Shown: in pieces, positions 19,153 through 23,550 of the stretch | Layout: the number at the start of each line of letters is the position of its first letter | Numbering within the stretch: the stretch's first letter is position 1 | Origin: Gluconobacter albidus | Lineage (GTDB): Bacteria > Pseudomonadota > Alphaproteobacteria > Acetobacterales > Acetobacteraceae | Length of the DNA: 64,000 nucleotides | NCBI RefSeq assembly: GCF_002723915.1 | Contig: NZ_BEWL01000003.1 | Span: 124,001 to 188,000 of the forward strand | Reading direction: 5' to 3' | Notes under the pieces: model-generated | What the model saw: only the letters and a program-made list of their open reading frames with translations | Told to the model about the DNA's origin: nothing | The model's database searches: none | Program-made: the position numbers and the translations under genes

Positions 19153-20643
19153 TCACGCGTCCGGACGCCCGCAAAAATCCCGCAGCCGCGCGAGACCCTC
19201 TTCGAACCGCTCCCGTTCGATCTCTCCCTGCGCGCTGTCCCCCAGCCGCAGCAGCCAGGACGGGTGGGCAAGCGCCAGACGCTGGACGGCATTTTCGCCC
19301 TCTCCCGCCGTCCAGAGCGTTCCGCGTCTCTCTGCCATCGCCCTGCCCGGACCATCCAGCGCCTTCAGCGCCGTAGCCCCCAGCGAGACGATGAGTCTGG
19401 GCCGGACCAGCGCAATTTCCTGTTCCAGCCAGGGGCGGCAGGCCGCCACATGCGCCTCATCCGGGCTCTGATGAATGCGGCGCCGCCCCTGAAGACGAAA
19501 ACGGAAATGCTTGACCGCGTTTGTCAGATACAGCGTGCTGCGCTCGACCCCGACCTTTTCCAGCGCCTCCTGCAACACCTGTCCCGCCGGGCCAACGAAG
19601 GGCCGCCCCGCCAGATCCTCCTGATCGCCCGGCTGCTCGCCAACGACCATGATCCGCGCCTCAACCGGCCCCTCCCCGACGACAGCCTGCGTGGCCGCAC
19701 AGTGCAGCGGACACGCGGTGCAGCTCCGAATTTTCGCAGCCAGATCTTCAGGCGTATGCGAAAGCGGCTGGAGTGGAAGACTGTCACGGGAGCGCAGGCG
19801 TTCGTGAAAGGCCGGAGCCGGCAGAGGCACCTGTTCGGCCATCATCCGGACGCGCGCCTCGGCCCCGGCCACAAGCTGCGGGATCAGGCGCGTTTCGGGC
19901 AGGTTTTTCCAGTAGCGACCCGGCATCTCACGGCGCATGGCTTTCGTGCGGACGCGGGCGGGATTGAACGTGGAGGCATAATAGGTGTTCCACAAATCCC
20001 CAAAGCCGTCATCCAGCTCCGGCTGTTCGCAGGGTTCAAAGGAGTAGGCCAGATCCTTCCCGTCCCAGCAGATGGAACCGCGCGGGGTCAGGATCATCCA
20101 GTCCATGTCCGTAAAGCGCTTCGAGAAGAAGGGCGCGATGCGTTCGAGAATATGGTGCTGCGGCTCGAACCAGGCGAGGAACCGCCGACGCCCGCTGCCC
20201 TCCCCCCCGACCTGTGCGGGCAGTTCGCGAAAGCGGACGAAGGCCGTCATCTTGTGACAGTCCTGCCGGTTCTGCCGGATCATGATCCGCGCTTTTGCGA
20301 TATCGGCATCCGTCGCCACATCCAGCAGATGCGGATTGCCCTGAACGCGCCATGCGATCCGGTAAGCGAGCGCGAACCGGCCAGGATCGGAATGGCACAG
20401 CATGTCCCGCAGCAGCGCGATGCACGACGCGCGCAATGTCACGCTTTTCAGGACCGGCCCCTCCGTCAGCGCTACCATGCCGTCGCTGTCATTGGTCTGT
20501 TGCCCGAACAGATCCGTCTCGCCTCCCCTCATCCGCCAGTCGAGGACCTCGGGCGGAATCGCACGCTGCAAAGCCGCGCGCGCCATCTCCCGCCAAGGCT
20601 CGAATACGGCGCTGTCCTCAAGAGTCAGGACGTAGCGCGTCAC
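19153..20643 (-). CDS. DUF4130-UdgX fusion: uracil-DNA-binding/glycosylase superfamily protein
   Basis: 496 residues. Residues about 1-255 are a DUF4130 (TIGR03915-type) domain: MTAFVRFRELPAQ, FLAWFEPQHHILERIAPFF, DWMILTPRGSICWDG. Residues about 300-495 are a UdgX-type glycosylase: cluster cysteines CTACPLHC (308-315), GEQPGDQED (335-343), FVGPAGQ, and the UdgX-specific loop GRRRIHQSP, whose His391 corresponds to the histidine that forms a covalent bond with uracil-DNA in Mycobacterium UdgX, then HPSWLLR (460-466). The GTG start overlaps the upstream radical SAM stop as GTGA. This arrangement suggests a DNA-damage response; the SOS-type box is upstream of the operon. The exact substrate is unknown. 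Confidence 0.88.
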   Translation of the reverse strand: MTRYVLTLEDSAVFEPWREMARAALQRAIPPEVLDWRMRGGETDLFGQQTNDSDGMVALTEGPVLKSVTLRASCIALLRDMLCHSDPGRFALAYRIAWRVQGNPHLLDVATDADIAKARIMIRQNRQDCHKMTAFVRFRELPAQVGGEGSGRRRFLAWFEPQHHILERIAPFFSKRFTDMDWMILTPRGSICWDGKDLAYSFEPCEQPELDDGFGDLWNTYYASTFNPARVRTKAMRREMPGRYWKNLPETRLIPQLVAGAEARVRMMAEQVPLPAPAFHERLRSRDSLPLQPLSHTPEDLAAKIRSCTACPLHCAATQAVVGEGPVEARIMVVGEQPGDQEDLAGRPFVGPAGQVLQEALEKVGVERSTLYLTNAVKHFRFRLQGRRRIHQSPDEAHVAACRPWLEQEIALVRPRLIVSLGATALKALDGPGRAMAERRGTLWTAGEGENAVQRLALAHPSWLLRLGDSAQGEIERERFEEGLARLRDFCGRPDA

Positions 20644-21872
20644 AAAAGATTCATCTGTTGGGGGGCGGGGCTGAACAGGCTGCGCAGGTCGTGCCGGTCG
20701 GTCAGACGGGCGGGACTCCAGCCCGGCGTCTGCACGAAGGGCCGGACCTTGCGGATGGACACGTTCAGCCGCGCCAGATCCTCCAGCCGTACGGCCTGAT
20801 GCCGCCGCGCCCTGAGAATGGCCGCTACGGCCTTCACCCCCAGCCCCGGCACCCGCAGCAGCATCTCCTTCGGCGCCCGGTTCAGATCCAGCGGAAACAA
20901 CGCCCGGTTATCCAGCGCCCAGGCCAGCTTGGGGTCCAGCTCCAGATCGAGCATCCCGTCCGCACGCCCGGCCGTCAGTTCCCCGAAAGCAAATCCGTAG
21001 AACCGGAACAGCCAGTCCGCCTGATAGAGCCTGTGCTCGCGCTGAAGCGGCGGACTTGTCGCCGGCAGGAGGGCGGATGCATCAGGAATAGGACTGAAAG
21101 CGGAATAATAGACGCGCCGCAGCCCGTAAGAGCCGTAAAGATTGGCGCTGCTGGCCAGAACATCCTGATCGGATGCCGCATCAGCCCCCACGATCATCTG
21201 CGTGCTCTGCCCCCCCGGCGAAAACCGTTCGGCCCGGCGCCCGGTATGGCTGCGGTCCTTGCCCGCGTCGATCTTCAGCCGCATCTCCCCCATGGCCTGC
21301 CGGATACCCCCCGCCTTTTTCTGCGGCGCATACTGCTCCAGCCCGGCCACGGTCGGCATTTCCACATTGATCGACAACCGGTCCGCATAGCGCCCCGCCT
21401 CTTCCAGCAGACGCGGCGACGCATCTGGGATGGTCTTGAGATGGATATAGCCCCGGAACCCGTGCTTCAGCCGCAGATCCCGCGCCACCTGCACAAGCTG
21501 CTCCATCGTGTGGTCAGACGAGCGGATAATGCCCGAAGACAGGAACAGCCCCTCGATGCAGTTCCGCCGGTAGAATTCCAGCGTGAGCCACACGACTTCC
21601 TCGGGTGTAAAGCGCGCGCGCTCCACATTCGAGGACGACCGGTTGATGCAATAGGCACAGTCATAGACGCAGAAATTGGTCAGCAGGATCTTGAGCAGCG
21701 ACACGCACCGCCCGTCCGGCGTATAGGAATGACAGATCCCGTTTCCCGTGGTGGAGCCAAGCCCCCCGCTCTTTGCGGAATCCCGACGCGTCGAGCCGCT
21801 CGACGCGCAGGAGGCATCGTATTTCGCCGCATCAGAGAGAATCGCCAGTCTCTGGGAGAGTGTTTTCTTCAT
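20640..21872 (-). CDS. Putative DNA modification/repair radical SAM protein
   Basis: 410 residues. The radical SAM cluster motif is CVYDCAYC (Cys 68, 72, 75), embedded in LLTNFCVYDCAYCINRSSSN; a helix-hairpin-helix DNA-binding motif lies near the C-terminus (LNRAPKEMLLRVPGLGVKAVAAIL, partly shown). This is the family of TIGR03916, described as a partner of the TIGR03914/TIGR03915 proteins, which here are fused in the next gene. The biochemical reaction is unknown. ATG 21872 is directly downstream of a GTTC-N7-GTTC box, so expression is likely SOS-induced. Confidence 0.88.
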   Translation of the reverse strand: MKKTLSQRLAILSDAAKYDASCASSGSTRRDSAKSGGLGSTTGNGICHSYTPDGRCVSLLKILLTNFCVYDCAYCINRSSSNVERARFTPEEVVWLTLEFYRRNCIEGLFLSSGIIRSSDHTMEQLVQVARDLRLKHGFRGYIHLKTIPDASPRLLEEAGRYADRLSINVEMPTVAGLEQYAPQKKAGGIRQAMGEMRLKIDAGKDRSHTGRRAERFSPGGQSTQMIVGADAASDQDVLASSANLYGSYGLRRVYYSAFSPIPDASALLPATSPPLQREHRLYQADWLFRFYGFAFGELTAGRADGMLDLELDPKLAWALDNRALFPLDLNRAPKEMLLRVPGLGVKAVAAILRARRHQAVRLEDLARLNVSIRKVRPFVQTPGWSPARLTDRHDLRSLFSPAPQQMNLL

Positions 21873-21877
21873 GCTGC

Positions 21878-21892
21878 GTTCTTATTTCGTTC
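21878..21892. promoter_or_regulatory. LexA-type SOS box GTTC-N7-GTTC before the repair operon
   Basis: GTTCTTATTTCGTTC, an exact match to the alphaproteobacterial LexA consensus GTTC-N7-GTTC with an AT-rich spacer. It ends 6 bases upstream of the ATG of the radical SAM gene (minus strand), where a possible -10 hexamer also lies, so LexA would block transcription. The second half-site is also part of an inverted repeat CGTTCC-N7-GGAACG (21888-21906). Confidence 0.7.
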
Positions 21893-21944
21893 CAGATGAC
21901 GGAACGCAAGAGAAACCGTGAAATTAACCTCTTGTTTCCCGGTA

Positions 21945-22050: not shown

Positions 22051-23550
22051 ATGTCATTGTCCATCAATACGAACACTGCGGCAATGGCCGCACTCCAGAG
22101 CCTCAATCAGACGACGGCTGACCTGAACAAGACCGAAAACACGGTCTCTACCGGCAAGTCCGTCAACACGGCGTCCGATAATCCCGCACTGTATTCCATT
22201 GCCCAGAACATGACCGCCCAGATCTCGACCCTGTCGGGCGTCTCCACGGGCCTCCAGTTCTCCGCTCAGGTGTTGAACACAGCAACGACGGGTCTGTCGA
22301 GCATTTCGAGCGCCCTTCAGTCTCTCGCCACCACCATCGGCACGAACACGACAGGCGTCGACAACTCGACCCTGAACGATGCCATCACCAAGACGCTGGC
22401 CTCCATCGACTCCGCCGCTACGGGCGCGAAGTTCCAGGGCGTAAACCTGCTCTCAGGCCAGACAGGCAACGGCACGACCTATACGAGCCTGTCGACCGCC
22501 ATGGACGCACAGGGCTCCACGTTCACGCAGAACGGCTTCAACGTAACCTCCGCCGGCCTGGGCCTGACGAACCTGAGCATGGACACGGCGGGCATGGATA
22601 TTGCCCTGGGAAGCACAAATTACACCGGCTCCCAGTCTCTTCAACTGAGCAGCGTACCTGCGGTTGCATCGACAGGAACAGGAACGGCTGCGACCGCCGC
22701 CATGGGAACTGCAACGGACCCGCTGGTGAGCTACAACTTCGTCATGGATGAAGCCGGCACGAAGGCCGATGCGCTTACGGCACTCAATTCTGCTGTAGGG
22801 GGCGGTACCGGCTTCAGTCTCGATACCAACGGCAAGCTGACAAACAGCACAGCTGGAACCACATCAACCACAGCCTCGGATGGCTCAGTGACGTTTTCTC
22901 TGGCCAATGGCAAGAGCGTCGTGGCCTCGAAGGACGGCAATGGCAACGCGGTCTACACCGTTACGACAGGAACGGACGCAAACGGCAATGCAACGGCCAA
23001 GACCGTAATCTCCGATGTTGATCTCAGCGGCGCAACGGGCAACGCGACTGCCACAACGACCGGCTCCCCGAGCCAGCTCATGGTCAACAAGACCAACCTG
23101 CTCACACAGGCCATGCAGTATCAGGGCTTTGCCGTAAGCCGTGATTCTGACAACCACCTGACGGTTGCCGGTAACAACCTCGACACGTCGAGTGCGGCCT
23201 TAACTGCGGCCACTACGGCCAATACCCTTAACAAGGATGCAACACCGCCGGCTATCACAGCCGTCACCGGCGCTGCCGTTGTGAGCGCCGTCGTGCAGTC
23301 TGCGATCTCAAGCGTGACGCGCACTGCGGCTTCGATTGGTTATTCCAGCACGACGATTTCCAACCTTCAGACCACGACGTCCAGCCTGTCCGACGCCCTG
23401 ACAACGGGTGTTGGCGCGCTGACGGATGCCGATCTGGCAGCCGAGAGCGCCAAGCTGACCTCGCTTCAGACGAAGCAGCAGCTCGCTGTTCAGTCGCTGT
23501 CGATTGCGAACTCGCAGTCGTCCACCCTGCTCAGCCTCTTCCGCGGCTGA
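22051..23550 (+). CDS. Flagellin
   Basis: 499 residues. The N-terminal helix domain starts MSLSINTNTAAMAALQSLNQ and continues with STGKSVNTASDNPALYSIAQ, and the C-terminal helix ends QLAVQSLSIANSQSSTLLSLF, the two conserved spoke regions of the flagellar filament protein. The central 250 residues are low in charge, rich in Thr, Ala, Ser and Gly, and likely form the outer domain. GGAG is 9 bases before ATG. flaF follows 130 bp downstream. No other flagellar structural gene is in the window. Confidence 0.96.
   Translation: MSLSINTNTAAMAALQSLNQTTADLNKTENTVSTGKSVNTASDNPALYSIAQNMTAQISTLSGVSTGLQFSAQVLNTATTGLSSISSALQSLATTIGTNTTGVDNSTLNDAITKTLASIDSAATGAKFQGVNLLSGQTGNGTTYTSLSTAMDAQGSTFTQNGFNVTSAGLGLTNLSMDTAGMDIALGSTNYTGSQSLQLSSVPAVASTGTGTAATAAMGTATDPLVSYNFVMDEAGTKADALTALNSAVGGGTGFSLDTNGKLTNSTAGTTSTTASDGSVTFSLANGKSVVASKDGNGNAVYTVTTGTDANGNATAKTVISDVDLSGATGNATATTTGSPSQLMVNKTNLLTQAMQYQGFAVSRDSDNHLTVAGNNLDTSSAALTAATTANTLNKDATPPAITAVTGAAVVSAVVQSAISSVTRTAASIGYSSTTISNLQTTTSSLSDALTTGVGALTDADLAAESAKLTSLQTKQQLAVQSLSIANSQSSTLLSLFRG

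Follow-up and report, generated by a model that had tools for sequence, protein, structure and literature searches.

In a window of 64,000 nucleotides from Gluconobacter albidus (contig NZ_BEWL01000003.1, positions 124,001 to 188,000; "the window" denotes this whole stretch), a radical S-adenosylmethionine (SAM) gene and a gene fusing DUF4130 to a UdgX-type uracil-DNA glycosylase (UDG) lie together behind a LexA-type operator. Judged from the conservation of this operator among relatives, the operon is very probably under SOS/LexA control, and we put at roughly 60% the probability that its two products would form a LexA-repressed, SOS-induced, clamp-tethered module for lesion processing. New and testable content comes from two features of the radical SAM protein, its clamp-type tail and its extra cysteines; SOS control of the operon family is already in print.

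Operon layout and LexA-type operator

The radical SAM gene (20640-21872, minus strand) encodes a protein of 410 aa that matches TIGR03916, which we take to be the same family as COG4277, with 549.2 bits against a curated cut-off of 343.5. Its closest named loci, within a set comprising the best 80 of 589 loci, belong to Gluconobacter sp. (97% and 96%), in support of the genus assignment. The fusion gene (19153-20643, minus strand) encodes 496 aa and matches both TIGR03915 (194.7 bits, cut-off 112.25) and TIGR03914 (283.2 bits, cut-off 189.95), so the three families named in the initial annotation of this DNA are all confirmed above their curated cut-offs. The overlap of the two genes by GTGA, also described there, is found at 20640-20643 (minus strand) and recurs as the same GTGA in 13 of 20 aligned genus loci, an arrangement suggestive of translational coupling. 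The span first given for the operon, 20640 to 21906, misses most of the second gene.

The LexA-type operator lies at 21878-21892 and reads GTTCTTATTTCGTTC, or GAACGAAATAAGAAC on the coding (minus) strand, an exact match to GAAC-N7-GAAC. Five bases (21873-21877) separate it from the radical SAM ATG at 21872; the GTTC-N7-GTTC repeat noted earlier beside this start is present, at a spacing of five bases and not six. Taken alone, the box in the window lacks significance and proves nothing, the pattern occurring four times against 1.90 expected and 10 of 100 shuffles reaching four, so that conservation across relatives had to decide. In the whole genome (3.29 Mb, both strands) there are 117 matches, compared with 23 for the reversed pattern, and the chance of a box in a given 200-base stretch is roughly 0.7%.

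The conservation in related Gluconobacter operons expected under the initial annotation was found, with an exact box within 200 bases upstream of the radical SAM gene in 22 of 22 genus loci. Together with the family, 41 of 49 loci carry it (the 22 from the genus and 27 from other genera). Both GAAC half-sites are invariant in the 20 aligned genus upstream regions, an alignment that excludes the divergent L049 and L050. The box is also present in all nine class-level loci examined, in all 28 loci newly read from the 53 same-class matches of a phylum sample and in 75 of the 80 named loci, against a background of 6 matches in the 197,981 bases that follow them. The five named loci without an exact box are two alphaproteobacteria, each with one mismatch, and three gammaproteobacteria (Xanthomonas, Luteibacter and Rhodanobacter), which have none. 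These locus sets share kin and cannot be treated as independent. In the gammaproteobacterial loci L133, L155 and L158, a Xanthomonad-type LexA box was tried as a candidate and rejected, its best matches being no better than those in shuffles.

Outside the class, the GAAC box was not found in 22 proteobacterial loci, among them one Caballeronia and one Acinetobacter; the loci from the phylum sample, 20 of its 29 outside-class matches, were picked before their upstream regions were seen. At 17 of these 22 loci the radical SAM gene is preceded by a perfect CTGT-N8-ACAG, the LexA box of the E. coli type, which occurs once as background in the 75,725 bases that follow. The presence of the same gene under a different LexA-type operator outside the class is strong evidence that this control matters. 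The link between the pair and DNA damage drawn in the initial annotation is thus strongly supported by sequence, and SOS control of this kind has been published before; the new type of base repair or modification suggested there is a hypothesis. The clamp-type tail, the three further invariant cysteines and the imuB/dnaE2 linkage of some relatives do not figure in that annotation.

The upstream alignment also suggests how repression could work. A TTGC at -37 (21906-21909, minus strand), conserved in 20 of 20 aligned genus regions, is a possible core of a -35 element in a promoter judged by eye, and an AATAAG inside the box, sharing four of six letters with the consensus, may be the -10. With this putative -10 inside the box, a repressor on the operator would mask the promoter, and the transcript would be practically leaderless.

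The same genome has lexA, as do 26 of 26 genus genomes, and a GAAC-N7-GAAC box stands upstream of both lexA and recA (576 bits). We read 20 of the 117 genomic boxes, picked by eye mainly for A/T-rich spacers: five are at recognisable SOS-type genes and eight are inside open reading frames of at least 200 aa, so the exact box alone is a weak predictor. In this genome-wide motif scan, of the kind proposed with the initial annotation, the five boxes at SOS-type genes are those of lexA, recA, two imuA-like genes and a ydjM-like gene. The last of these, a membrane protein gene (L072; PF04307, 100.5 bits), lies 41 bases downstream of its box, and its E. coli namesake ydjM belongs to the SOS genes. 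Two imuA-like genes (L079 and L080) on contig C9 are 96% identical, and a GAAC-N7-GAAC box overlaps each of their starts. Their imuA matches (60 and 51 bits) fall under the curated cut-off of 150, and an impB/mucB-type reading frame follows each. Four genus genomes of 2.2-2.6 Mb (G054, G072, G077 and G081) have neither the radical SAM gene nor an ImuA match and keep lexA; an ImuA match is also missing in 6 of the 22 genus genomes with the radical SAM gene, in counts that ignore kinship.

The radical SAM protein and its partner

The radical SAM protein ends in QMNLL (20643-20657, minus strand), a motif of the type that binds the beta clamp; the variant QMSLL is found in 13 of 22 genus loci. More generally, the tail follows the pattern Q-x-x-(L/M)-(F/L/I/W) or a six-residue variant of it. 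Such a motif lies within the last 16 residues of 188 of 190 homologues (158 strict pentapeptides, 12 hexapeptides and 18 loose forms), compared with none of the 78 partner C-termini, 9.8% of tails after shuffling and 0.46% of internal windows. The count retains close kin and omits L060, which is cut off, L164, whose frame stops at 233 aa, and L168, which coincides with L203, and the analysis as a whole excludes L058, which is the window's own locus again, and L061-L067, weak class matches under the family cut-off. Residues 405-410 have a predicted local distance difference test (pLDDT) value below 50 in the structural model, as expected of a flexible tag.

Client proteins of the beta clamp have the consensus QL(S/D)LF, with QLGLF in Pol II, QLNLF in Pol V, QLVLGL in Pol IV and QADMF in Pol III, according to the accessible text of PMC11139829. 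The radical SAM tail appears to share this type of motif in a flexible stretch, which points to tethering of the protein to the beta sliding clamp and suggests where it would act. We found no open-access paper joining "radical SAM" with "clamp-binding motif", nor any mention of a clamp motif in the accessible part of PMC8565304, while papers on the Verrucomicrobia LexA and the Caulobacter SOS regulon may discuss it or the gene pair; a clamp-type tail on a radical SAM protein looks new. A patch of the form xLF(G/A) recurs within a variable linker of the DUF4130 protein (residues 40-47; window 20503-20526) and reads QxDLF in a few relatives; it is a possible degenerate second clamp motif whose Gln is usually missing.

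The CxxxCxxC motif (C68, C72 and C75, residues 68-75; 21648-21671, minus strand) is conserved in 51 of 51 homologues, and the Pfam Radical_SAM model matches with 32.8 bits. Exactly six cysteine columns are conserved in these 51 aligned sequences, the triad and C22, C47 and C56 (residues 22-56; 21705-21809, minus strand), the latter three being Cys in every homologue. Three extra invariant cysteines suggest an auxiliary Fe-S cluster, of which they are candidate ligands; such a cluster is probably present. The 50 Foldseek matches listed, of 83 with E<=0.001, are generic radical SAM folds that include lipoyl synthase, MiaB, RimO and biotin synthase. TYW1 has three cysteines before its CxxxCxxC; likeness to it was considered and dropped, no TYW1 title being among these 50 matches.

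The helix-hairpin-helix (HhH) named in the initial annotation (residues 328-358; 20799-20891, minus strand) is present, weakly in the single protein (HHH_3, E=0.0056) and at E<=1 in 49 of 51 aligned homologues, with a best value of 4.3e-7. The region also gives weak profile matches to ComEA and RuvA chains (E 0.01-0.21). Mean column identity is 71% for the radical SAM protein (51 rows) and 51% for its DUF4130-UdgX partner (48 rows), which suggests that the better conserved radical SAM protein is the core of the system.

In the partner, DUF4130 covers residues 89-250 (19894-20379, minus strand; PF13566, 126.2 bits, cut-off 27) and the UdgX-type domain residues 299-466 (19246-19749, minus strand; 160.6 bits to a UdgX chain with phmmer). 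Foldseek matches of the fusion to UdgX reach 43-47% identity with TMt of 0.82-0.93. The histidine of the RRIH motif, H391, aligns with the His of the UdgX chains in the PDB and is kept in at least 90% of 48 aligned sequences. The 50 fold matches listed for the fusion are mostly of UDG type and suggest no fold for DUF4130.

Genomic neighbourhood and distribution

The neighbourhood of the pair was compared in 78 named loci (L090-L167), some of which end before the next gene. A dnaE2 gene starts at most 300 bases downstream of the pair in six of them (L129, L131, L136, L138, L162 and L165), and an imuB-like gene ends at most 1.4 kb upstream on the same strand in eight (L129, L136, L138, L139, L140, L160, L162 and L165), so that the pair lies between imuB-like and dnaE2 genes in five. 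The linked loci are from sphingomonads or Erythrobacteraceae, apart from L140, an unspecified alphaproteobacterium. In L134 (Henriciella), imuA-imuB-dnaE2 is on the opposite strand. Several of the other flanking clusters resemble antisense frames. In the window, a gene judged by eye to be flagellin-like (22051-23550) is oriented divergently, its start 178 bases away from that of the radical SAM gene, so that two promoters may share the space between them.

The radical SAM gene was found in 84 of 398 phylum-sample genomes, in 28 of 60 family genomes (that of the window included) and in 22 of 26 genus genomes; in a class-wide sample, it was found over the cut-off in 10 of 190. Among plasmids, 158 of 72,556 records carry it, with Phaeobacter as the commonest source (58); among phages, 10 of 50,697 records do, namely two Acinetobacter phage and eight faecal contigs named "Bacteriophage sp.".

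Proposed mechanism, alternatives and known systems

In the mechanism that we favour, LexA would sit on the box, over the putative -10, until its RecA-stimulated cleavage, as the conserved operator suggests. The radical SAM protein is predicted to carry the SAM [4Fe-4S] triad and, probably, an auxiliary cluster; its conserved QMNLL/QLSLF-type tail would recruit it to the beta sliding clamp, and its helix-hairpin-helix, likewise conserved, would recruit it to DNA. Behind the fork, where gaps or translesion sites expose a damaged or deaminated base, it would most likely act on that base by radical chemistry. Its DUF4130-UdgX partner would serve in lesion recognition, its UdgX domain binding or covalently capturing uracil-type lesions in single-stranded DNA, and DUF4130 may link this capture to the radical step. 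A more specific version is possible but doubtful, and we offer it tentatively: a clamp-tethered, SOS-induced radical SAM enzyme with two Fe-S clusters, whose gene in some lineages is part of the imuB-dnaE2 cluster, would repair or remodel a base lesion held by covalent UdgX in single-stranded DNA, as a form of replication-coupled repair. If true, this would be a radical-based, replication-coupled repair pathway for which we found no described counterpart.

The radical SAM gene is patchy yet common and belongs to a family with no assigned reaction. That different lineages place LexA-type boxes of two kinds before this gene indicates that it matters after DNA damage. Boxes and tail together make an orphan family accessible to simple tests, namely DnaN binding, damage sensitivity and mutation spectrum.

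Several observations weigh against a LexA-controlled, clamp-tethered module of this kind. The Caulobacter consensus, given as TGTTC-N6-TGTTC in the accessible part of PMC13384398, comes from another order of the class, and the window box, possibly a weaker site, has C at both of the T's that precede GTTC in it; at one of those T's the genome's own lexA box deviates too. An exact box is missing from 8 of the 49 genus-plus-family loci. Outside the class, L198, L203, L204, L206 and L221 show no perfect CTGT-N8-ACAG (L221 has seven of its eight letters), and L133, L155 and L158 no perfect known box. The clamp motif is short, the expressions used to count it were fixed after the tails had been seen, many of the 190 rows are close kin, and the motif is absent from the two homologues that diverge most (36% and 45% identity). 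Model residues 22-44 have pLDDT below 50, which leaves the auxiliary cluster without structural support. The imuB/dnaE2 linkage is a minority arrangement. On the partner's side, the gene ends at 261-289 aa in 6 of 78 loci, giving DUF4130 with no fused UDG; among the rows listed, the Rhodobacterales fusions L107, L109, L113 and L116 do not have the cysteines of the UDG Fe-S region; and in L149 (Acetobacter nitrogenifigens) the UDG motifs are degenerate, with RRIP for RRIH and HPS lost, so that its UdgX domain is possibly inactive yet kept in the fusion. Given these UDG-less partners, lost Fe-S cysteines and the L149 sequence, covalent capture cannot be the universal core of the system.

Among other explanations, it is unlikely that the operon serves SOS-tuned uracil excision, in which UdgX and DUF4130 would remove uracil or nucleotides misinserted by error-prone polymerases and the radical SAM enzyme would act on the product. 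The UDG fold and its conserved His, the dnaE2/imuB linkage in some loci and the misincorporation role suggested for SOS-controlled UDGs in the accessible text of PMC8565304 all fit this idea; it leaves unexplained the radical SAM enzyme, which is the better conserved member (71% against 51%), and the DUF4130 genes with no fused UDG in 6 of 78 relatives. Direct reversal in the manner of SplB, with the radical SAM enzyme repairing a UV thymine photoproduct and UdgX-DUF4130 as mere accessory, is quite unlikely. Spore photoproduct lyase is not among the 25 NCBIfam families listed of 33 matched (51 members, E<=1), nor does an SplB title appear in the 50 listed of 83 Foldseek matches, so that the fold search does not favour SplB identity. 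The three extra invariant cysteines speak against it as well, and we know of no such cysteines in SplB.

A slim chance attaches to DNA base hypermodification, in which the radical enzyme would install a modification after damage. The NCBIfam name "DNA modification/repair" and the auxiliary-cluster enzymes among the fold matches listed (lipoyl synthase, MiaB, RimO and biotin synthase) are in keeping with it, but SOS-type control and a clamp tail would suit repair better than steady-state modification. That the GAAC repeat arose by chance and LexA does not control the operon strikes us as extremely improbable: the non-significant count in the window and the 8 of 20 genomic boxes inside reading frames speak for it, and against it stand the conservation of the box in all sets of relatives and the other kind of LexA-type box that precedes this gene outside the class.

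A lesion-processing module under LexA has close company in the literature. In the accessible text of PMC8565304, a two-gene COG1573-COG4277 operon, described as a UDG-containing system putatively for base excision repair, is part of inferred SOS networks of Bacteroidetes, SOS regulation of such a system is cited from Verrucomicrobia and Alphaproteobacteria (its refs 7 and 65), and SOS-controlled UDGs are suggested to address misincorporation by SOS polymerases; the regulatory link is thus known in kind. We found no open-access paper joining UdgX with radical SAM or UdgX with LexA, and among the three families only TIGR03914 was found named, with no naming of TIGR03915 or TIGR03916.

Compared with known systems, the Gluconobacter operon shares with COG1573-COG4277 a UDG-family gene and a partner gene under a LexA-type repressor; it differs, as far as the accessible text of PMC8565304 goes, in that the operators there are GGA-N5-TCC and CTAA-N5-TTAG, the UDG-DUF4130 fusion being a feature of the Gluconobacter operon. 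From the co-occurring NCBIfam families TIGR03914, TIGR03915 and TIGR03916 we see no difference, and the names of these models state no reaction. UdgX of Mycobacterium smegmatis (PDB 6ail, 6ajo, 6iod, 8iie and others) also has the RRIH histidine and is 43-47% identical across the domain, whereas the Gluconobacter domain is joined to DUF4130 and its gene accompanies that of a radical SAM protein. SplB has in common the radical SAM superfamily and the DNA context (PMC3765255, in its accessible part); unlike it, the Gluconobacter protein has extra cysteines, an HhH and a clamp-type tail. The imuA-imuB-dnaE2 mutasome, finally, has a LexA-type box as well and in some sphingomonads lies in one gene cluster with the pair; unlike the mutasome, the operon has no polymerase, and in this genome the imuA-like genes are on contig C9 and the operon is on contig C3.

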